From positions 1-23,137 of the IMG/VR virus record IMGVR_UViG_3300046388_000002: DNA of 23,137 nucleotides; one strand, given 5' to 3'. Shown here piece by piece: positions 3-6,124 of this stretch. The notes under the pieces were generated by a model that was given only the letters and a program-made list of their open reading frames with translations, was not told the DNA's origin and ran no database searches. Each line of letters begins with the position of its first letter. The first letter of the stretch is position 1. This stretch comes from a virus. A program made the position numbers and the translations under genes.

Positions 3-503
3 ATGACCAAAGGAAAGACTAAAACAGAAGAAGCTGAAAAAATTTTAATAACTAAAATTTTAGTAGTTATTGGAATTATGTTATTTGTCGGAATATTTTG
101 TCAAAATCTTTGGGCAGATCAGTTAGTTCATAAATTTAAGTCTCCTAGTTTTAACGGCATGGGTACCAGCTCACACTATCTTACGATTGAAAACCAAGAG
201 TTCTCAAGAAAATTAACCATTAAGGAAGAGATTAAGGCCTTACAGGATGAGATAGAAAGAGAAAAAGAAAACTCTACTCTTGCAAGATTTATGCGTAACC
301 TAGAATCAAGAGTTTATGCTGAGTTATCAAGACAGTTAGTAAATAACTTATTTGGCGAAACACCATCAAGTTCTGGAACCATTACATTAGAAGGTAATAC
401 TATAGAGTATACTAGCGATGGCGTAACATTAACCCTTAAGATAACGGAAGCAGATGGCACAGTTACAGAAATCACAATACCTATTGGTACTTTTACTTTC
501 TAG
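3..503 (+). CDS. csgF: CsgF-like curli assembly factor
   Basis: CsgF is the periplasmic/outer-membrane factor that binds CsgG and positions the curli nucleator at the cell surface. The 166-residue protein has a charged N-terminus, a hydrophobic segment at about residues 18-37 ending in a likely cleavage site (LWA/DQ), and then the CsgF signature: LVHKFKSPSFNG resembles the E. coli FQFRNPNFGG start of mature CsgF. The C-terminal half (an SRVYAELSRQLVNNLFG helix, then an ITLEGNTIEYTSDGVTL strand region) follows the CsgF order of helix then beta strands. E. coli CsgF is 138 residues, so the extra length is mainly N-terminal. The ATG is the first codon visible at the window edge; the true start could lie upstream. 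The last 50 bases overlap csgG, which supports the pairing. No CsgE is visible; it could lie upstream of the window. Confidence 0.82.
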   Translation: MTKGKTKTEEAEKILITKILVVIGIMLFVGIFCQNLWADQLVHKFKSPSFNGMGTSSHYLTIENQEFSRKLTIKEEIKALQDEIEREKENSTLARFMRNLESRVYAELSRQLVNNLFGETPSSSGTITLEGNTIEYTSDGVTLTLKITEADGTVTEITIPIGTFTF

Positions 504-1353
504 TTGTTCTATATTTGATCAATACGAAGATACTTACGAACAAAGATATAGTTCTAATAACGTAGTATCTATACAAGATTTACAATCTAAAGAACTTAAG
601 AACGTACCAATACCAGAAGTTAGTCCAGTAGTAGCGGTATACCCTACAGCATTTACAGATCAAACTGGTCAACGTAAGAGCAATAGTGAGTTTGCATTAT
701 TTAGTACGGCTATTACCCAACAACCCAATGCACTACTTATACGAGCTTTAAAACACGCAGGAGATGGCAAGTTCTTTAGAGTTGTAGAAAGAGTTGGCTT
801 AGATAATCTTACTAAAGAACGCCAGCTTATAAGGTCAGCTAGAGAACAAACAGCTACAGAAGAAGATAAAAAGAAAGCTCTTAGACCATTATTATTTGCA
901 GGTATTTTAATAGAGGGAGCTGTTATATCTTACGAAGCTAACCTAGAATCTGGTGGCGTAGGAGCTAGGTATCTTGGTATTGGCAATAGCGTACAGTATA
1001 GAGAGGACAATATAACAGTTTCACTTAGAATGGTGTCTGTAGCTACAGGCGAAGTATTGCTAGAAGTATTAAGTCAAAAGACCATATTTAGCTATGGTAA
1101 ATCTGAAGATGTATTTAGATTTATTGAGGCAAATACTGAGCTAGTAGAAATAGAATTAGGTAACGCTAGAAATGAATCTTCTACCATAGCTTTAATGAAA
1201 GCTATAGAAGGTGCTGTCCTTGAACTGGTGCAAATAGGTTATAACAGAAAATATTGGATTTTACAAAAACAAAATCAAGGAGTAAAATTAAATGATGAAG
1301 AAATTAATAAGCCTACTTGTGATGCTGAGTGTATCGACAAGTTACGCGGCTGA
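454..1353 (+). CDS. csgG: CsgG-like outer-membrane secretion channel lipoprotein
   Basis: CsgG is a lipoprotein that assembles as a nonameric outer-membrane channel exporting curli subunits. The N-terminus is a lipoprotein signal with lipobox L15-S16-S17-C18. The CsgG core is clear: NALLIRALKHAGDGKFFRVVER corresponds to the E. coli segment before the constriction, and SGGVGARYLGIG at residues 166-177 is nearly identical to E. coli SGGVGARYFGIG. ITVSLRMVSVATGEVL and KTIFSYGKSEDVFRFI also follow the family. At 299 residues it is slightly longer than the E. coli protein (277), mostly at the C-terminus (GVKLNDEEINKPTCDAECI). The start is inside csgF in the +1 frame; it is the only start that supplies the lipobox, and the 50-base overlap corresponds almost exactly to the signal peptide. 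Family assignment is firm; what it exports here is inferred. Confidence 0.93.
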   Translation: MAQLQKSQYLLVLLLSSCSIFDQYEDTYEQRYSSNNVVSIQDLQSKELKNVPIPEVSPVVAVYPTAFTDQTGQRKSNSEFALFSTAITQQPNALLIRALKHAGDGKFFRVVERVGLDNLTKERQLIRSAREQTATEEDKKKALRPLLFAGILIEGAVISYEANLESGGVGARYLGIGNSVQYREDNITVSLRMVSVATGEVLLEVLSQKTIFSYGKSEDVFRFIEANTELVEIELGNARNESSTIALMKAIEGAVLELVQIGYNRKYWILQKQNQGVKLNDEEINKPTCDAECIDKLRG

Positions 1354-2020
1354 CAACGAAATATATGTAGATCAGTCTGGTACTGGTGCGAATATAGACC
1401 TAGAACAATTAGGTATATCAAATATTATTGGTGGTTTAAATTCAACGGCTGGAAGCGTTAATGCTTTCGATTTGGATGGAAACACTATGACTTTAGACAT
1501 CAACATGATTGGTGCAACTAATAAGTTTCTTGGTGATATATTTGCAGATAACTTCACAGGTTTATATAACTTTACTGGTGGTACAAACTCTTTTACTATT
1601 CAAGTAGATCCAACAGATACCTACAGTTCAGATGGCTCTAATCAAAACGTAGCTGTTACTGGTAGTGGTAATACATTTACTTTAAACCAAGGTACAACTG
1701 CAATAGCTGCATCACTAGATTTAGATTGGATTATTCAGGGATCTAATAACACAGTAACATCTAACATTAATATTGATGGTGCTACCAACTATATGGATAT
1801 AGATGGTTCTGATAATACAGTAACTTACACAGGTACTGGTGTTAATGCCTCAGCAGGTGGATATTTTTACTTAGACCATACAGGCGGTTCAAGAACTTTT
1901 AATATCTCACAACTGAGTACCCAAGATAATGACTGGCTCAAAATTATGTCAATCTCTGGCACTGCTGCTTCTACTGTTTGTGTCGTTCAAAACGACCAAG
2001 GTACAAGCACAAGCTGTTGA
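1292..2020 (+). CDS. Curlin-like secreted beta-repeat protein (putative CsgG substrate)
   Basis: The 242-residue protein has a Sec signal peptide (MMKKLISLLVMLSVSTSYA/AD, cut near residue 19) followed by degenerate curlin-type repeats. The best are Q28-S-G-T-G-A-N34 and Q39-L-G-I-S-N44, matching the Q-x-G-x-x-N core of CsgA/CsgB. Looser G-x-x-N-x-hydrophobic-x-hydrophobic units follow: DGNTMTLDI (62), GTNSFTIQV (97), GSGNTFTLNQ (124), QGSNNTVTSNI (149), DGSDNTVTY (171) and GSRTFNISQ (199). Two cysteines (C230, C242) close the protein and could form a disulfide. The protein is poor in Lys and rich in Asn, Ser, Thr and Gly, as expected of an extracellular amyloid or beta-solenoid. It starts in the +1 frame inside csgG, and its signal peptide occupies the overlap. 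Sitting directly after csgF-csgG it is the natural cargo. Alternative: a virion appendage protein using the same fold. Confidence 0.72.
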   Translation: MMKKLISLLVMLSVSTSYAADNEIYVDQSGTGANIDLEQLGISNIIGGLNSTAGSVNAFDLDGNTMTLDINMIGATNKFLGDIFADNFTGLYNFTGGTNSFTIQVDPTDTYSSDGSNQNVAVTGSGNTFTLNQGTTAIAASLDLDWIIQGSNNTVTSNINIDGATNYMDIDGSDNTVTYTGTGVNASAGGYFYLDHTGGSRTFNISQLSTQDNDWLKIMSISGTAASTVCVVQNDQGTSTSC

Positions 2021-3047
2021 TATTGGGGATATTTCTGAGCTAAACGGTTCAGCCCAAATAGTAAGAGACAAACCTTACGATGCAAACTTAAAGTTTGCTA
2101 TACAAAGTAATGATGAAGCCATAACTACTAATGGCAGAATGGCTATAACATTTCTTGATGACTCTGTTGTAAAATTAACTGAACATTCACAATTATTAAT
2201 AGATGAATACATTTACGATCCTGATCCAAGCAAATCTAAAATGGCTATTACCTTTGGTCTTGGGACAGCACGCTTTATTACTGGCAATCTAAATCGTATA
2301 GATAAACAAAATATTACTCTTAAGACTCCTACAGCCAATATAGCTATAAGAGGTACAGACTTTACAGCCACAGTAGATGAGCTAGGTCGAAGTCTTATAA
2401 TACTATTACCAGACGCTTTAGGCTTATCTAGTGGCGAAATACTGGTAACTACAGCTATGGGTACTGTCACTCTTAATAAACCATATCAAGCTACAACTGT
2501 TAGCGTTTTTGAATCATCTCCTAGTAAACCCGTTATTTTAGATTTAACGCTAGATGTTATAGACAATATGCTTATTGTGACTCCCCCAAAAGAAGAGGTA
2601 GTTATAGAAGAAGAAAGTACAAATACAAAAACAGATAGCGTATTAAATTTTAACGATCTTGATATAGATTATTTAGCAGATGATTATTTAAAAGAAGACA
2701 GTTTAGAATTTACAGAACTTGATATAAATTACCTAGATGTAAATTATCTTGAAGATTTGTTAAATGTACTAGATGCTTTAGCTGTAAGTGAAGATGAAGA
2801 TCAACTAGCTCAAGCAACCAGCACTCAAGTTAGTGGTACTTTACTGGGCAAGGATCCTGATACTCAAATAACTACAATTATTACAGGTAATGTTATTAGC
2901 TTACGCAGACAGGTAAACGAGTCTGTGCAATTAGACTTAGATGGTAGTACATCTTATACTGTTATCTTTATACAAGATGGCATATCAAATGTTATCAAGG
3001 TAAATGGAGGGAGCGACAGTGTTATTACTATCACTCAAAGTGATTAA
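1929..3047 (+). CDS. Secreted FecR-domain protein with acidic tandem repeat and curlin-like C-terminus
   Basis: A signal peptide (hydrophobic run at residues 10-20, likely cut after VQA27) is followed by a FecR domain at about residues 35-150: NDEAITTNGRMAITFLDDS, LTEHSQLLIDEYIYDP and the conserved LKTPTANIAIRGTDFTATVD. FecR domains are periplasmic sensor/ligand-binding modules, and in bacteria they often lie beside CHASE2 cyclases, exactly as here. Residues 239-258 and 259-278 form a 20-residue tandem repeat (L-x-F-x-x-L-D-I-x-Y-L-x-x-x-Y-L) rich in Asp and Glu. The C-terminus holds a curlin-type strand, Q349-D-G-I-S-N354-V-I-K-V, followed by VITITQ, resembling a single CsgA/CsgB repeat. The gene begins in the +1 frame within the curlin-like gene (92-base overlap covering the signal peptide) and ends in TAATG with the cyclase. 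Role as linker between surface fibre and cyclase is inference. Confidence 0.85.
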   Translation: MTGSKLCQSLALLLLLFVSFKTTKVQAQAVDIGDISELNGSAQIVRDKPYDANLKFAIQSNDEAITTNGRMAITFLDDSVVKLTEHSQLLIDEYIYDPDPSKSKMAITFGLGTARFITGNLNRIDKQNITLKTPTANIAIRGTDFTATVDELGRSLIILLPDALGLSSGEILVTTAMGTVTLNKPYQATTVSVFESSPSKPVILDLTLDVIDNMLIVTPPKEEVVIEEESTNTKTDSVLNFNDLDIDYLADDYLKEDSLEFTELDINYLDVNYLEDLLNVLDALAVSEDEDQLAQATSTQVSGTLLGKDPDTQITTIITGNVISLRRQVNESVQLDLDGSTSYTVIFIQDGISNVIKVNGGSDSVITITQSD

Positions 3048-4798
3048 TGAATAAACTTTTATTACCTATACTTATAATACTAAGCTTACCTTTAGTATTT
3101 CAATCTACACCTACAGAGATACTTAAACTAAAAATCTTTGATGCTTTTGTAACAACACCAGAGCCAAGTGGTAATTTTGTCATACTTAACATAACCGAAG
3201 AAGATGTAGAACGAGAGGGCGGTTGGCCATTACCTAGACAAAGACTTGCACAAATACAAGCAGACTTAATTAACAAAGGTGCAGTAGGCATTGGTTGGGT
3301 TGTATCCTTTCCACAACCAGATCGCATGGGTGGTGATGAAGTGTTTGCAGAAGCATTAGGTTATGCACCTTCTGTTATAGCAATGTTTGAAGATGGCAAA
3401 GGTAACTTTCCTGCATCACCAGGTACGGTTGTTATGGGTAATAATAATGGTGGTATACTTAGTTCGGGAGTAAAACAAAACCAGCCTCTATTAGCAAATA
3501 ACACGCTAACTGGTTTAGCTATTGCTCCCACTGATGTAGATCAACTTGTAAGAAGAATACCTCTTTTAGTCAAAACACCTAACAATGAATGGATACCTAG
3601 TTTTGGTACACAAATATATAAGGCTTTGTTTAATGTAAAAACCTACATTATAAAAACTAATGATAATGGTATAGAGGAAATATCAATCAGAGGAATACCA
3701 CCAATTAAGACGGATAGCCTTGGTCGTAAATGGATCAGTTGGGTAGATACACCACAAACTGATTTAAAAGAAATGAATGTTGCAGGTAAGTTTGTTTTTG
3801 TTGGCGTAACTGCTAACGGAGTGATGCCACAAGTTGCAACTCCAGTTGGTTTATTAGAACCACATAAGATTCAAGCAGCATTATCTGAGTCAATCTTGAT
3901 ACAAAACTCTCCAATAATTCCAGATTTTGCTTTAGCTTTGGAAATTTTAATTTTTGGAATTTTTGTGTCGTTGACATGGCTTGTAATAAATTATCTTGGT
4001 GTAACTAAGGGCGTAAGTATAGCTGTAATTTTGCTTTTAACCACAGGCTTTACAGGAGCTTACAGCATTCAGAAGGGTTATTTAATAGATTTTTCTTGGA
4101 CTTTTATATCACAATTTATAACTGGAGCTATTGCCTTCTATATAAACTTTAGAAAACAGTTTAAGTTACGTCAATTAATTAAAAAACAATTTGAACATTA
4201 TCTTGATCCAAGACAAGTTAAACAACTACAAGATAATCCTAATCTATTAAAACTTGGTGGCGAAAAAAGATACGCTACATTTTTGTTTACAGATGTTAGA
4301 GGCTTTACCAGTCTTTCAGAAAAACTAAAACCAGAAGAAGTTACTGAGATAATGAACAAAGCATTAACAGTACAAGTAGAATGCGTACAAAAAAATGGAG
4401 GCATGGTAGATAAATTTATTGGTGATGCTTGCATGGCTATATTCTCAGCACCTTTAGATTTAGAAGATCACGAAGACAAAGCAGTAAAGACTGCTATTGA
4501 AATGCAGGATCGTATAAAAGAACTTAATAAAGAATTATCACATAAGATTGCTATTGGGGTGGGAGTAAATACTGGTACAGCTGTGGTAGGTAACATGGGA
4601 TCTGATACTAGATTTGACTTTTCAGCTATCGGAGACTGCGTAAATATAGCAGCTAGACTTGAGTCTGGTACAAAAGAAGCTGGAGTTGATATACTTATAG
4701 GAGAAGAGACTGCCAAAAACTGTAGTTTTGAGTTAAAATCTTTAGAAGCAATTAAAGTTAAAGGTAAAGAAAAATCTTTAAACGTATATACAATTTGA
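3047..4798 (+). CDS. CHASE2-domain class III adenylate cyclase
   Basis: A 583-residue inner-membrane sensor cyclase expected to make cAMP from ATP. Residues 4-20 form an N-terminal membrane anchor; residues about 25-290 are a periplasmic CHASE2 sensor domain (VILNITEEDVEREGGWPLPR, GAVGIGWVVSFPQPDRMGGD); three membrane segments lie at about 295-367; the cytoplasmic cyclase domain fills about 400-583. Catalytic residues appear intact: metal-binding D416 (FTDVRGF) and D460 (FIGDACMAIF), purine-selecting K456, and transition-state N533 and R537 (VNIAARLES). The second specificity position is S526, where adenylate cyclases usually have Asp or Thr; Lys plus Ser still favours ATP over GTP, but specificity is inferred. 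It is coupled to the FecR gene by TAATG, and bacterial FecR/CHASE2-cyclase neighbours are common. In a phage operon this is unusual. A nearly family-length, apparently functional enzyme rather than a remnant. Confidence 0.93.
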   Translation: MNKLLLPILIILSLPLVFQSTPTEILKLKIFDAFVTTPEPSGNFVILNITEEDVEREGGWPLPRQRLAQIQADLINKGAVGIGWVVSFPQPDRMGGDEVFAEALGYAPSVIAMFEDGKGNFPASPGTVVMGNNNGGILSSGVKQNQPLLANNTLTGLAIAPTDVDQLVRRIPLLVKTPNNEWIPSFGTQIYKALFNVKTYIIKTNDNGIEEISIRGIPPIKTDSLGRKWISWVDTPQTDLKEMNVAGKFVFVGVTANGVMPQVATPVGLLEPHKIQAALSESILIQNSPIIPDFALALEILIFGIFVSLTWLVINYLGVTKGVSIAVILLLTTGFTGAYSIQKGYLIDFSWTFISQFITGAIAFYINFRKQFKLRQLIKKQFEHYLDPRQVKQLQDNPNLLKLGGEKRYATFLFTDVRGFTSLSEKLKPEEVTEIMNKALTVQVECVQKNGGMVDKFIGDACMAIFSAPLDLEDHEDKAVKTAIEMQDRIKELNKELSHKIAIGVGVNTGTAVVGNMGSDTRFDFSAIGDCVNIAARLESGTKEAGVDILIGEETAKNCSFELKSLEAIKVKGKEKSLNVYTI

Positions 4799-4806
4799 GG
4801 AAAGAT

Positions 4807-4992
4807 ATGGCAACAGCAAAAGATGCTCTTACTGCAATAGAATCTCATGAAAGAGAATGCAAAGCATTATACAAAAGTATTGATAGAAGACTAGAAGACG
4901 GTGCAAAGCGTTTTGATAAGCTAGAGAATATGATTTGGGCTGTGTATCCATTCATACTAGTATCAATAGTTTTGTCGCAGGTTATTAGTTAA
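4807..4992 (+). CDS. Holin-like single-membrane-span protein (XhlA-type)
   Basis: A 61-residue protein with a charged, probably helical N-terminal part (ESHERECKALYKSIDRRLEDG, KRFDKLENMIW) and one C-terminal membrane segment (about residues 41-60, VYPFILVSIVLSQVIS). This layout, cytoplasmic coiled-coil helix then terminal membrane span, is that of XhlA-type haemolysin/holin accessory proteins. Its place immediately before spanins and a lysozyme lacking any export signal argues for a role in opening the inner membrane. I choose ATG 4807 rather than the in-frame TTG at 4795 because AGGA at 4799-4802 is correctly spaced for 4807. The cyclase stop is 8 bases upstream and the next gene overlaps by TAATG. 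It could instead be a small membrane protein of unknown lysis role. Confidence 0.6.
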   Translation: MATAKDALTAIESHERECKALYKSIDRRLEDGAKRFDKLENMIWAVYPFILVSIVLSQVIS

Positions 4993-5387
4993 TGTCTAAA
5001 GTTTTGATAGGAATTATAGTAGTTATGGGATTAGCTACTTATTTACTATGGAATGAAAACTCTAAACTATCTGCTCTTAATCAAGCATTTGAAATAAGAA
5101 ATCAAGAACAAAGGTTAGCAATAGAATCATTACAAAATGATTTTGCTTTACAAACATCGAGCTTACTAGACTTACAAAGTAGAAATCAAGAGATTCAACA
5201 AGAGATGTCAAGATACCTTGACATATTTAAACGACATAACTTAACTAAATTAGCCGCAGCTAAACCAGGTTTGATTGAACCAAGAGTAAACAAAGGAACT
5301 AAAGATGTATTTGATAGCATTGAAGAAGACAGCCGTAACATTGACAGTCTTGATGATGGCTTGCAGTTGCAGCCTGATACCAAGTAA
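4992..5387 (+). CDS. i-spanin-like inner-membrane lysis protein (Rz-type)
   Basis: Spanins join inner and outer membranes in the last step of lysis of Gram-negative hosts. This 131-residue protein has an N-terminal membrane anchor (about residues 4-20) with a short cytoplasmic tail, a long periplasmic coiled coil (about 22-80, rich in Leu, Gln, Asn and Glu), and a conserved-looking tail (LAAAKPGLIEPRVNKGT, then DVFDSIEEDS) of a kind seen in phage Rz-type proteins. It starts at a TAATG junction with the holin-like gene. The next gene, a small lipoprotein, begins inside its 3' end in the +1 frame, the classical overlapping Rz/Rz1 arrangement, which is the strongest support. Only the topology and gene order are directly visible. 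Confidence 0.75.
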   Translation: MSKVLIGIIVVMGLATYLLWNENSKLSALNQAFEIRNQEQRLAIESLQNDFALQTSSLLDLQSRNQEIQQEMSRYLDIFKRHNLTKLAAAKPGLIEPRVNKGTKDVFDSIEEDSRNIDSLDDGLQLQPDTK

Positions 5388-5676
5388 ACAACAGGTTGAG
5401 GTTATATCTAAACCTATAGAAAGAACTATAGTTCAACCTGTAATGCCTAGAGAAATAGATCTAAAAGATCCGTATTGGTATGTAGTGTCAGATAAAAATT
5501 TAGAAGAGTTCTTAGCAAGAGTTGAGAAAGACCAAGGTCAAGTGGTATTCTTAGCTATGTCTGTGCCCGATTACGAGCTCATGTCATATAATATGCAGGA
5601 ATTAAAGAGGTATATAAATGAACTTAAAGAAGTTGTTGTCTATTACAAAAAAGTTACTACAAAAGAAAAGGAGTAA
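5305..5676 (+). CDS. o-spanin-like outer-membrane lipoprotein (Rz1-type)
   Basis: This 123-residue protein begins with a lipoprotein-like signal: K7-K8, a hydrophobic run, then MMAC20 or ACSC22 as possible lipobox cysteines. The mature part is short, with a Pro-containing linker (VISKPIERTIVQPVMPREID) and a C-terminal helical region (YELMSYNMQELKRYINELKE). It overlaps the i-spanin gene by 83 bases in the +1 frame; the overlap spans the signal and the first few mature residues. Together with lysozyme immediately downstream this fits the outer-membrane partner of a two-component spanin. It is longer than lambda Rz1 and not Pro-rich throughout, so the call depends on topology and position. The start could also be the TTG at 5320, which would keep the lipobox. 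Confidence 0.65.
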   Translation: MYLIALKKTAVTLTVLMMACSCSLIPSKQQVEVISKPIERTIVQPVMPREIDLKDPYWYVVSDKNLEEFLARVEKDQGQVVFLAMSVPDYELMSYNMQELKRYINELKEVVVYYKKVTTKEKE

Positions 5677-5680
5677 AAAT

Positions 5681-6124
5681 ATGAATATATCGCAAGAAGG
5701 ATTAAGTTTAATTAAAAAGTTTGAAGGTGTTGAATACAATGCTTACAAATGTGCAGCAGGCGTATGGACAATAGGATATGGTCATACTGCTGGAGTTAAA
5801 GAAGGTGATTTAGTTTGTCAAAGAGAAGCAGAAGAAATATTAGATCAAGATATAAAAGAGTTTGAAGGTTATGTTAAAGATAGCGTTACTGTTGATCTTG
5901 ATCAAAATCAATTTGATGCTTTAGTATCTTGGGTGTTTAACCTAGGGCCTGCTAACTTAAAAGCCTCAACCATGCTTAAAGTATTGAACTCAAGTGATTT
6001 TGATAATGTGCCTACACAAATTAAAAGATGGAATAAAGCTGGTGGCAAAGTGCTTGAAGGACTTATAAGACGTAGAGAAGCAGAAGCCTTACTATTTGAA
6101 GGCAAGGAATGGCACGAGGTTTAA
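5681..6124 (+). CDS. Phage lysozyme (GH24 endolysin)
   Basis: A 147-residue muramidase that cuts peptidoglycan glycan strands. The GH24 active site is complete: E15 (LIKKFEG), C24 and T30 (CAAGVWTIGYGHT), with the same spacing as E11-D20-T26 of T4 lysozyme; Cys in place of Asp is a known variant of the triad. The rest of the fold is recognisable (QFDALVSWVFNLGP, RWNKAGGKVLEGLIRRREAE). There is no signal peptide or signal-anchor sequence, so release needs a holin, consistent with the gene at 4807. I place the start at ATG 5681 because AAGGAG at 5668-5673 is ideally spaced; an in-frame upstream ATG at 5618 would add a Lys-rich 21-residue extension overlapping the o-spanin and has no good ribosome-binding site. 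Confidence 0.95.
   Translation: MNISQEGLSLIKKFEGVEYNAYKCAAGVWTIGYGHTAGVKEGDLVCQREAEEILDQDIKEFEGYVKDSVTVDLDQNQFDALVSWVFNLGPANLKASTMLKVLNSSDFDNVPTQIKRWNKAGGKVLEGLIRRREAEALLFEGKEWHEV

Follow-up and report, generated by a model that had tools for sequence, protein, structure and literature searches.

A phage curli-export cassette linked to a FecR protein and a CHASE2 adenylate cyclase

Why would a phage carry genes for a curli-type secretion channel next to genes for a membrane signalling pair, and do the two halves of such a locus serve one function? The question is raised by a linear IMG/VR record of 23,137 bases from a virus of marine bacteria (IMGVR_UViG_3300046388_000002; its full length is called the window here). 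Five open reading frames, all on the + strand, encode a CsgF homologue of 166 amino acids, the putative accessory factor of the CsgG pore (3-503; PF10614, E 7e-16; phrog_35372, E 6e-44); a 299-residue CsgG homologue, the predicted outer-membrane curli pore (454-1353; PF03783, E 6e-46); a curlin-like cargo of 242 residues (1292-2020); a FecR-domain protein of 372 residues (1929-3047; PF04773, E 2e-9); and a 583-residue protein that joins a CHASE2 sensor to a class III adenylate cyclase (3047-4798; PF05226, E 2e-28; PF00211, Guanylate_cyc, E 5e-23). Each of the first four frames overlaps the next, the FecR and cyclase frames by one base. Downstream on the same strand follow a small membrane protein of 65 amino acids with a coiled coil and a C-terminal membrane segment, a holin candidate by position and shape (4795-4992; weak PHROG match, E 0.011), an Rz-like inner-membrane spanin (4992-5387; phrog_739, E 3e-12), an Rz1-like lipoprotein spanin (5305-5676; phrog_812, E 8e-12) and an endolysin of the phage lysozyme type (5618-6124; PF00959, E 2e-48; phrog_7). 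A preliminary description of this DNA had reported five co-oriented, overlapping phage genes in this order beside lysis genes; the reading frames and domain matches agree with it on both points, and the cassette is confirmed as real. The same description allowed for an assembly chimera of host and phage, which we reject because a second contig, L004, covers cassette, lysis genes and virion genes alike and shows 95-100% identity where they join. All five genes are under purifying selection among the relatives of set A (median dN/dS 0.06-0.18), with the lowest median in the curlin-like gene (0.062).

The five-gene unit had been thought unreported, but the available text of Wittmers et al. (2022; PMC9599517) already describes the order CsgF-CsgG-CsgA/B-FecR-(CsgA/B)-AC from both podo- and myo-pelagiphages, with superinfection defence, aggregation and import as proposed roles, and the records of HTVC008M and Melnitz carry the CsgF-CsgG-curlin-FecR-cyclase module. 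The window matches the gene order of this pelagiphage type VIII secretion module (HTVC023P-type podoviruses and pelagimyophages), and differs in lacking a second curlin in the FecR-cyclase interval, in running into lysis genes and in belonging to a phage distant from HTVC023P/027P (33-35% in one virion protein). Its nearest named phages are distant and differ in their hosts, and a megablast search with the window phage returned no match; it thus adds a further example of the phage type VIII secretion module, and the podovirus-like phage that carries it has no close relative in the searched collection. With the E. coli CsgA-G curli system the window shares the CsgG and CsgF families and a candidate curlin-like substrate; it adds FecR and the CHASE2-cyclase, and Pfam scans of ten window proteins found no CsgE, CsgC or CsgD. 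A FecR protein beside a CHASE2 protein is a known bacterial pairing (PMC5192318; PMC5498481): Burkholderia BiofilmReg and S. meliloti cyaD1 both set a secreted FecR-domain protein beside a CHASE2 membrane sensor, as the window does. The output of BiofilmReg is a histidine kinase, and the accessible part of its source describes no curli genes (PMC5192318); in S. meliloti the FecR gene adjoining cyaD1 was dispensable for signal perception, according to the portion of that report at hand (PMC5498481). What is new here is the strength of the linkage, the FecR tail motif, the lack of a detected kinase domain in the protein encoded before CsgF in relatives, the absence of both tested cyclase classes and near-absence of receptor domains in Pelagibacterales genomes, and the Caulobacteraceae cassettes, each taken up below.

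Of the two export proteins, CsgG aligns with E. coli CsgG structures over residues 45-278 (E 1e-46) and carries, by eye, a lipoprotein-type signal (LSSC), while CsgF conserves an F-x-x-P-x-F segment following its signal peptide in an alignment of 11; a CsgF profile had no match in the PDB at E 0.01. The cargo combines a signal peptide (by eye) with beta repeats and two cysteines at its C-terminal end, and has no significant Pfam match of its own (Curlin_rpt, E = 4). It aligns with curlin-type proteins of HTVC008M-like phages and Caulobacteraceae in which the Q/G/N repeat positions are invariant, and eight of the 35 members of this alignment match Curlin_rpt at E <= 0.05. Among named BFVD entries, those closest to its AlphaFold2 model (pLDDT 78, pTM 0.75) are phage proteins labelled 'Curlin associated' (TM 0.71-0.77; E 1.2e-3 and 1.4e-3); a nameless entry ranks first by E (3.5e-4), with a TM of 0.34-0.37. 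A fold search of the PDB gave nothing at E <= 0.001, and a profile search of PDB sequences no credible relative. The curlin-like character that the preliminary description had proposed thus appears to hold by relatives and predicted fold, not by the protein's own Pfam score.

Curli-export loci of phages are common in IMG/VR, where each search gave hundreds, and their association with the signalling genes can be followed from several sides. We analysed sets of 80 loci, the best-scoring 80 of 381, at least 588, 305 and at least 598 relatives, with eligibility of a locus decided by its distance to the contig end and at least 10 contigs common to the CsgG-anchored and cyclase-anchored sets. Loci retrieved through CsgG carry FecR in 72/72 and the cyclase in 69/69 eligible cases; those retrieved through the cyclase carry CsgG in 42/42 and CsgF in 35/35; and those retrieved through FecR carry CsgF in 65/65 and the cyclase in 41/42, with the same gene order from all three anchors. 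A divergent set, also of the best 80, has FecR in 43/43 loci and the cyclase in 33/33 within about 8 kb on each side, and here the linkage persists despite inserted genes. Three of these 33 cyclases lie on the opposite strand and are still nearby, and therefore the linkage outlives the operon. Six of the 46 loci in this set have no recognised cargo gene next to the module. A second gene of the curlin-like type is present in many loci. Linkage of the cyclase to CsgG or FecR is near-absolute. The co-occurrence in order that the preliminary description had predicted is thus present, and the contrary case it had named, in which related phages carry the genes singly at unrelated loci, was not what the retrieved phages showed.

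A possible point of contact between the two halves lies in FecR. Its layout comprises a signal peptide (by eye), a FecR beta domain at about residues 31-191, an acidic linker and a C-terminal beta region; AlphaFold2 gives a mean pLDDT of 65.6, with ten-residue means of 65-88 across residues 31-200, and leaves the tail unfolded, residues 360-372 lying mostly below pLDDT 50. The FecARI iron-citrate system has a FecR domain in common with the window, but its FecR has a cytoplasmic anti-sigma part where the window protein has a signal peptide; regulation of that kind is rejected on this ground and because no ECF sigma factor and no FecA-type or other TonB receptor was found among the ten scanned proteins, all downstream of the contig start. 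The tail (residues 343-372; 2955-3044, + strand) ends in ITITQSD and resembles a curlin repeat by motif counts and hhalign. The C-terminal motif [VIL]x[VIL]xQx0-4 is present in 210/210 distinct FecRs from curli loci (161/161 in sets A-C, which had been seen before the motif was defined, and 49/49 in set D, out of sample and without overlap with the 161), in 0/75 other FecRs and in 5/939 other ORFs (4/680 and 1/259); because the FecRs are homologous, the 210 are not 210 independent events. The counts exclude ORFs that contain an X or have an open end, FecRs of set D were at least 300 aa long, and a limit of 340-420 aa reduced the others from 163 to 161, leaving out two pieces of 275 and 87 aa (at locus L343 FecR is split into pieces of these sizes). 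By hhalign, the tail matched the curlin repeat at E 1.3e-4 in the divergent set, where the five sliding windows closest to the FecR C-terminus took the top five places among 47, and reached only Prob 7% and P 0.005 in the first sets, for the best of 37 windows; the controls used with the divergent set excluded ORFs with at least four strand-Q motifs, which the motif counts kept. Single-sequence profile searches gave no significant homology between tail and curlin, with reversed FecRs and unrelated ORFs scoring equally high. Profile support for a curlin-like tail is moderate, and the tail offers a concrete and cheaply testable tie between secretion and signal.

The cyclase has its catalytic residues intact. 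D416, K456, D460 and R537 are present in 150/150 relatives, and N533 and a serine or threonine at 526 in 148/150 each (150 of 156 relatives after a length filter); the window protein has all six, with serine at 526. We take the two aspartates to bind metal, the lysine and Ser/Thr to form the base pocket and the asparagine and arginine to be the transition-state pair of class III enzymes. The nearest solved chains are adenylate cyclases, and the residues point to cAMP as the most likely product. Which molecule would read the signal is a pointed question where the host has no known source of cAMP and, in most genomes, no receptor: among 97 Pelagibacterales genomes (the order that includes the host of HTVC008M), which may be incomplete and may not include HTCC1062, class III and class I adenylate cyclases were each found in 0/97 and a cNMP_binding domain in 7/97 (90/97 without). 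The preliminary description had imagined a reprogramming of cAMP-CRP regulation, which finds no support in Pelagibacterales, possibly not the host group of the window phage, nor in 16 phage records, none of which encodes a cNMP_binding protein. In SAR11-type hosts the receptor is probably not a CRP.

The joined cassette also occurs outside phages. Two Caulobacteraceae MAGs (L086 and L087) carry CsgF-CsgG-curlin-curlin-FecR-CHASE2 cyclase among genes of bacterial appearance; they differ from the window in their two curlins, and their gene lists show no small membrane protein immediately ahead of CsgF. These cassettes are 87% identical to each other in unrelated flanks, and their FecRs share the C-terminal tail motif; in the CsgG tree they adjoin podophage CsgG with weak support (84/76), and a search with the Caulobacteraceae FecR found no viral contigs. 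The other bacterial CsgF/CsgG loci examined had no FecR or cyclase match (24/24), and bacterial loci L091-L162 have FecR without any CsgG or CsgF match, about a third of them with a cyclase-profile match nearby. In SAR11 this match is a CHASE2-PP2C-like protein: at locus L110 the CHASE2 partner looks, by eye, like a PP2C phosphatase. The cassette thus has relatives among bacteria to look to.

Because the export genes are linked to FecR and the cyclase in nearly every eligible locus, we think it fairly probable that the export module and the FecR/CHASE2-cyclase pair form one secretion-signalling device, and since the linkage holds even where the cyclase is encoded on the opposite strand, signalling looks integral to the function and not an add-on. 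Late in infection, CsgG and CsgF would assemble a pore in the outer membrane through which the curlin-like protein reaches the surface of the infected cell, and the periplasmic FecR and inner-membrane CHASE2-cyclase would be a sensor pair watching export or envelope state. FecR is proposed as the curlin reader because its tail ends like a curlin repeat: by strand addition it could read curlin that is still unexported or is assembling, and signal to the cyclase, which would then make a cyclic nucleotide, most likely cAMP. Counting against this reading are the dispensable FecR of the S. meliloti cyaD1 locus, the Melnitz infections reported below without clumping, the failure of single-sequence searches to join tail and curlin, the poorly modelled end of FecR, the 16 phage records without a cNMP_binding protein and the six divergent loci without a recognised adjacent cargo. 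A bolder version makes FecR a built-in curlin sensor whose tail, a single curlin repeat, joins growing or stalled periplasmic curlin and switches the CHASE2 cyclase, so that the phage brings a closed circuit of secretion and second messenger, in a cassette that enters bacterial chromosomes in one piece; since SAR11 has no known cyclase and mostly no cAMP receptor, its signal would act through a novel receptor or extracellularly. In this full form the proposal is doubtful. The FecR-CHASE2-cyclase pair might instead be an independent envelope-stress reporter, uncoupled from export and travelling with it by chance or through joint acquisition from bacteria, as bacterial FecRs without curli genes and the two joined Caulobacteraceae cassettes would allow. 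We consider this unlikely in view of a linkage that survives inserted genes and strand changes in very divergent phages, of a curlin-like end confined to curli-locus FecRs as against other FecRs, and of the 24 other bacterial CsgF/CsgG loci examined, in which no match to either partner was found.

The single-device reading also has to be set against explanations in which the amyloid or the pore has another purpose. On lines suggested by Buchholz et al. (2022) and by Zaragoza-Solas et al. (2020), the pore itself is the point, as a late lysis-timing channel of the outer membrane, a pinholin- or secretin-like device or an uptake pore, with the curlin a plug or vestige. In the podophage-like sets, 35/39 and 36/48 loci do have a relative of the window lysozyme no more than 3.5 kb downstream of the cyclase, two of seven proteins encoded directly before CsgF weakly match a holin PHROG (E 7e-5 and 1.1e-4), and the ten scanned window proteins include no CsgE. 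Near HTVC008M-like loci, however, such a relative was found in 0/19, where a different lysozyme family would escape detection, with the module unchanged; because of this difference, placement in a lysis operon seems not to be an inherent property of the module. The second curlin-like gene in many loci and the low dN/dS of the curlin-like gene likewise argue against the pore reading, which we regard as improbable. A biofilm-type device of the kind put forward in published hypotheses, with a surface amyloid for sibling capture or superinfection exclusion and a cyclase that reprograms host cAMP-CRP, would suit the conservation of the module under purifying selection and the aggregation that curli promote in other bacteria (as cited in the available text of PMC9599517). 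It seems less probable still, given the Pelagibacterales counts above, for what may be another host group, and the available account of Buchholz et al., in which Melnitz infections produced no clumping under their culture conditions (PMC9004378).

One further gene accompanies the module. The record starts at CsgF, so any gene upstream is cut off in the window, but 68/68, 29/29 and 63/64 eligible loci of relatives encode a small coiled-coil membrane protein directly before CsgF, and the seven inspected are 91-116 aa long and all match phrog_18771. The available text of Wittmers et al. (2022; PMC9599517) places one or two 'histidine kinase' genes ahead of the module, and the small membrane gene is probably what that annotation denotes. 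A true histidine kinase before CsgF is rejected for these relatives, since scans detected no HisKA or HATPase domain by Pfam in three of these proteins (from L005 and two from L082) and no kinase domain by NCBIfam in five (those three and two from L010), which suggests that the published annotation should be rechecked.

The five cassette genes of the window lie contiguously on the + strand, each overlapping the next: CsgF (3-503), CsgG (454-1353; matching the solved E. coli pore at 1e-46), a secreted-looking cargo of 242 aa (1292-2020), a FecR-domain protein (1929-3047), and a CHASE2 cyclase (3047-4798). The window is a linear IMG/VR virus record of 23,137 bases whose contig start falls at CsgF, and downstream of the cyclase come a 65-aa membrane protein, Rz and Rz1 spanins, an endolysin, and virion-type genes, with replication-type genes (assigned by eye) on the opposite strand. 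The arrangement beside lysis genes proposed in the preliminary description is thus seen in ORFs and in Pfam and PHROG searches, which directly confirmed four of the five genes. Passages of earlier papers already describe phage CsgF and CsgG (Zaragoza-Solas et al., 2020, PMC7029224; Buchholz et al., 2022, PMC9004378), and those of a third add curlin, FecR, and cyclase in an order identical to that of the window, together with possible roles (Wittmers et al., 2022, PMC9599517), so the supposition that such a five-gene unit had not been noted before does not hold. The window is a further example of this published phage curli module. Among open-licence full texts, Wittmers et al. was the sole paper to combine FecR with csgG and adenylate cyclase, or FecR and bacteriophage with type VIII secretion; three other papers mention FecR together with curlin and repeat. 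Beyond the published core, the strict linkage, the likely curlin-like end of FecR, and the lack of a receptor form a puzzle open to testing.

The window's cassette could have been an assembly chimera, but contigs of other metagenomes bear it as well: one (L002) is 100% identical from CsgF through FecR and over its portion of the cyclase, and carries 8 kb upstream, and another (L004) spans cassette, lysis genes, and a virion gene at 95-100% identity, which rules the chimera out. On a third contig (L005, 9319-14123), CsgF through FecR match the window at 99-100% identity and the cyclase at 77%, a drop that on sequence grounds is a mosaic or recombination boundary near the FecR/cyclase junction. 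DNA-methyltransferase-like genes (by eye) stand between FecR and cyclase at L075 (5636-6313) and L084 (1694-2857), so this junction takes insertions.

Nor do the related phages retrieved carry the genes singly: they occur together in four IMG/VR sets. Three sets of 80 loci were counted over contigs reaching far enough, and, as numbers of retrieved relatives rather than independent events (the loci are the best-scoring ones and some contigs are common to sets), neighbors were present as follows: around the CsgG anchor (best 80 of 381), CsgF in 73/73, cargo in 75/75, FecR in 72/72, and cyclase in 69/69; around the cyclase anchor (best 80 of at least 588), FecR in 66/66, cargo in 44/44, CsgG in 42/42, and CsgF in 35/35; and around the FecR of phage HTVC008M (best 80 of 305), CsgF in 65/65, CsgG in 69/69, cargo in 73/73, and cyclase in 41/42, the sole exception (L359) having a cyclase some 6 kb more distant. 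Anchoring on CsgG of phage Melnitz gave a fourth set (best 80 of at least 598) of 30 close loci, with FecR in 17/17 and cyclase in 4/4, and 50 divergent loci, with CsgF in 49/49, FecR in 43/43, a recognized adjacent cargo in 40/46, and a cyclase within the stretch available around the anchor in 33/33, three times in the opposite orientation. Median dN/dS in the CsgG-anchored set was 0.178 for CsgF, 0.073 for CsgG, 0.062 for cargo, 0.093 for FecR, and 0.171 for cyclase.

By itself, the window cargo falls below significance against Pfam Curlin_rpt (E = 4), as does the syntenic HTVC008M cargo (E = 1.1); the syntenic Melnitz cargo reaches 8.6e-6. Across an alignment of 35 syntenic cargos, two of them from Caulobacteraceae metagenome-assembled genomes (MAGs), the Q/G/N repeat positions are kept, and eight match Curlin_rpt at E <= 0.05. 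The AF2 model of the window cargo is a beta-repeat protein (pLDDT 78) whose best named viral fold neighbors are 'Curlin associated' (TM 0.71-0.77, E about 1e-3); a PDB fold search gave nothing under E 0.001. HTVC008M has a second curlin (gp018, L082:5139-6464, annotated 'hypothetical protein') with a PA14 domain and five curlin repeats.

In the FecR protein, a signal peptide precedes a FecR beta domain, which an acidic linker joins to a beta region at the C-terminus (AF2, with low confidence beyond the FecR domain). All 161 complete FecRs of curli loci, whether from phages or from Caulobacteraceae, terminate with [VIL]x[VIL]xQ plus 0-4 residues, as against 4/680 other ORFs and 0/75 other bacterial FecRs. 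The fourth set, out of sample for this motif and sharing no FecR sequence with the 161, gave 49/49 FecRs against 1/259 other ORFs. The same ending occurs in 58/65 cargo-profile matches of the fourth set and in 67/164 of the first three sets; the window cargo lacks it and ends in cysteine. A first hhalign attempt to relate the FecR tail to curlin was weak, and single-sequence profile tests were not significant; profile comparison lent moderate support, the divergent FecR tail matching the curlin C-terminal profile (E 1.3e-4, Prob 54%) and the five FecR windows nearest the C-terminus scoring best out of 47. FecR thus likely bears a curlin-like strand at its C-terminus, and we hypothesize that it senses curlin.

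Adenylate cyclases are the nearest solved chains to the window cyclase. Among 150 relatives, the equivalents of D416, K456, D460, and R537 never vary, 148 retain N533, and 148 carry Ser or Thr at position 526. In class III cyclases, Lys plus Ser/Thr denotes ATP specificity, which is accordingly the predicted specificity here. The Melnitz cyclase (L083:6326-8377) has Ser at the expected catalytic Asn, as in 2/150 relatives, so its activity may differ.

The proposal that the signal is read through cAMP-CRP is unsupported for SAR11. The module-bearing phage HTVC008M has Pelagibacter HTCC1062 as its host. A sample of genomes, possibly incomplete and not necessarily including HTCC1062, from the order to which a Pelagibacteraceae genome belongs (here Pelagibacterales) contained no CsgF (0/147), class III cyclase (0/97), or class I cyclase (0/97), with a cNMP_binding domain in 7/97, in long frames unlike CRP in size (six of 870 aa, and one of 372 aa cut by a contig edge). 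Fourteen named genomes used as positive controls yielded CsgF in 1, class III cyclase in 5, class I cyclase in 1, and cNMP_binding in 10. The domain was also absent from 16 phage records, namely the window, HTVC008M, Melnitz, and 13 other, possibly fragmentary IMG/VR contigs. FecR genes (about 191 aa) also occur in SAR11 genomes themselves, some of them near a CHASE2-PP2C-like gene, as at L110:6443-10378 (domains by eye). As to the window's own host, megablast found no match, and one of the window's virion proteins shares 32-40% identity with phages that infect Gammaproteobacteria, Roseobacter, Pelagibacter, and cyanobacteria.

A FecR scan of a species-genome collection kept 79 loci of 283 relatives. 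Two contigs whose other genes look bacterial, each from a Caulobacteraceae MAG (L086, L087), have the joined cassette, and five phage-looking MAG contigs (L084, L085, L088-L090) have the whole or a part of it. These five, filed under Neomarinimicrobiota, Flavobacteriaceae, and Pirellulales, seem to be phage sequences that were binned with bacterial genomes (L090 by cassette alone). Across the cassette (L086 7151-13105), L086 and L087 are 87% identical in DNA, with no match outside, and these unrelated flanks suggest that it is mobile; by the CsgG tree, transfer between phage and Caulobacteraceae may have run in either direction. CsgF was found in 7/385 alphaproteobacteria (six over the cut-off) and in 21/299 genomes of L086's family, both including L086's genome. 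Of the further CsgF-CsgG loci from these searches, 24 were inspected; 17 have curlin-like ORFs (the other seven may not be curli loci), and none had FecR or cyclase matches in the stretch read (under 14 kb in five). CsgG is also matched, at 43%, by 1,499 bases recorded as Salmonella phage S.Kent 1-2-1 (OR851715.1), possibly host DNA.

Directly before CsgF, a small coiled-coil membrane protein, frequently as a tandem pair, is encoded in 68/68 eligible loci of the CsgG-anchored set, 29/29 found only with the cyclase anchor, and 63/64 of the HTVC008M FecR set; among divergent loci, the stretch available contains one copy or more in 16/27 and two copies in 13/27, in some cases on the opposite strand. 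All seven tested belong to phrog_18771 (function not annotated), two also matching a holin PHROG weakly, and neither the Pfam scan of three nor the NCBIfam scan of five detected a kinase domain. Passages of Wittmers et al. (2022; PMC9599517) state that the curli genes are always preceded by a 'histidine kinase, sometimes two', and that HK and CsgA/B were omitted from trees as short, diverged, and/or having paralogs. We infer that these are the same small membrane proteins and that the kinase name is doubtful. On three divergent phage contigs of 56-236 kb (L413, L418, L420), the cyclase is near and on the opposite strand, with the small membrane pair between FecR and cyclase.
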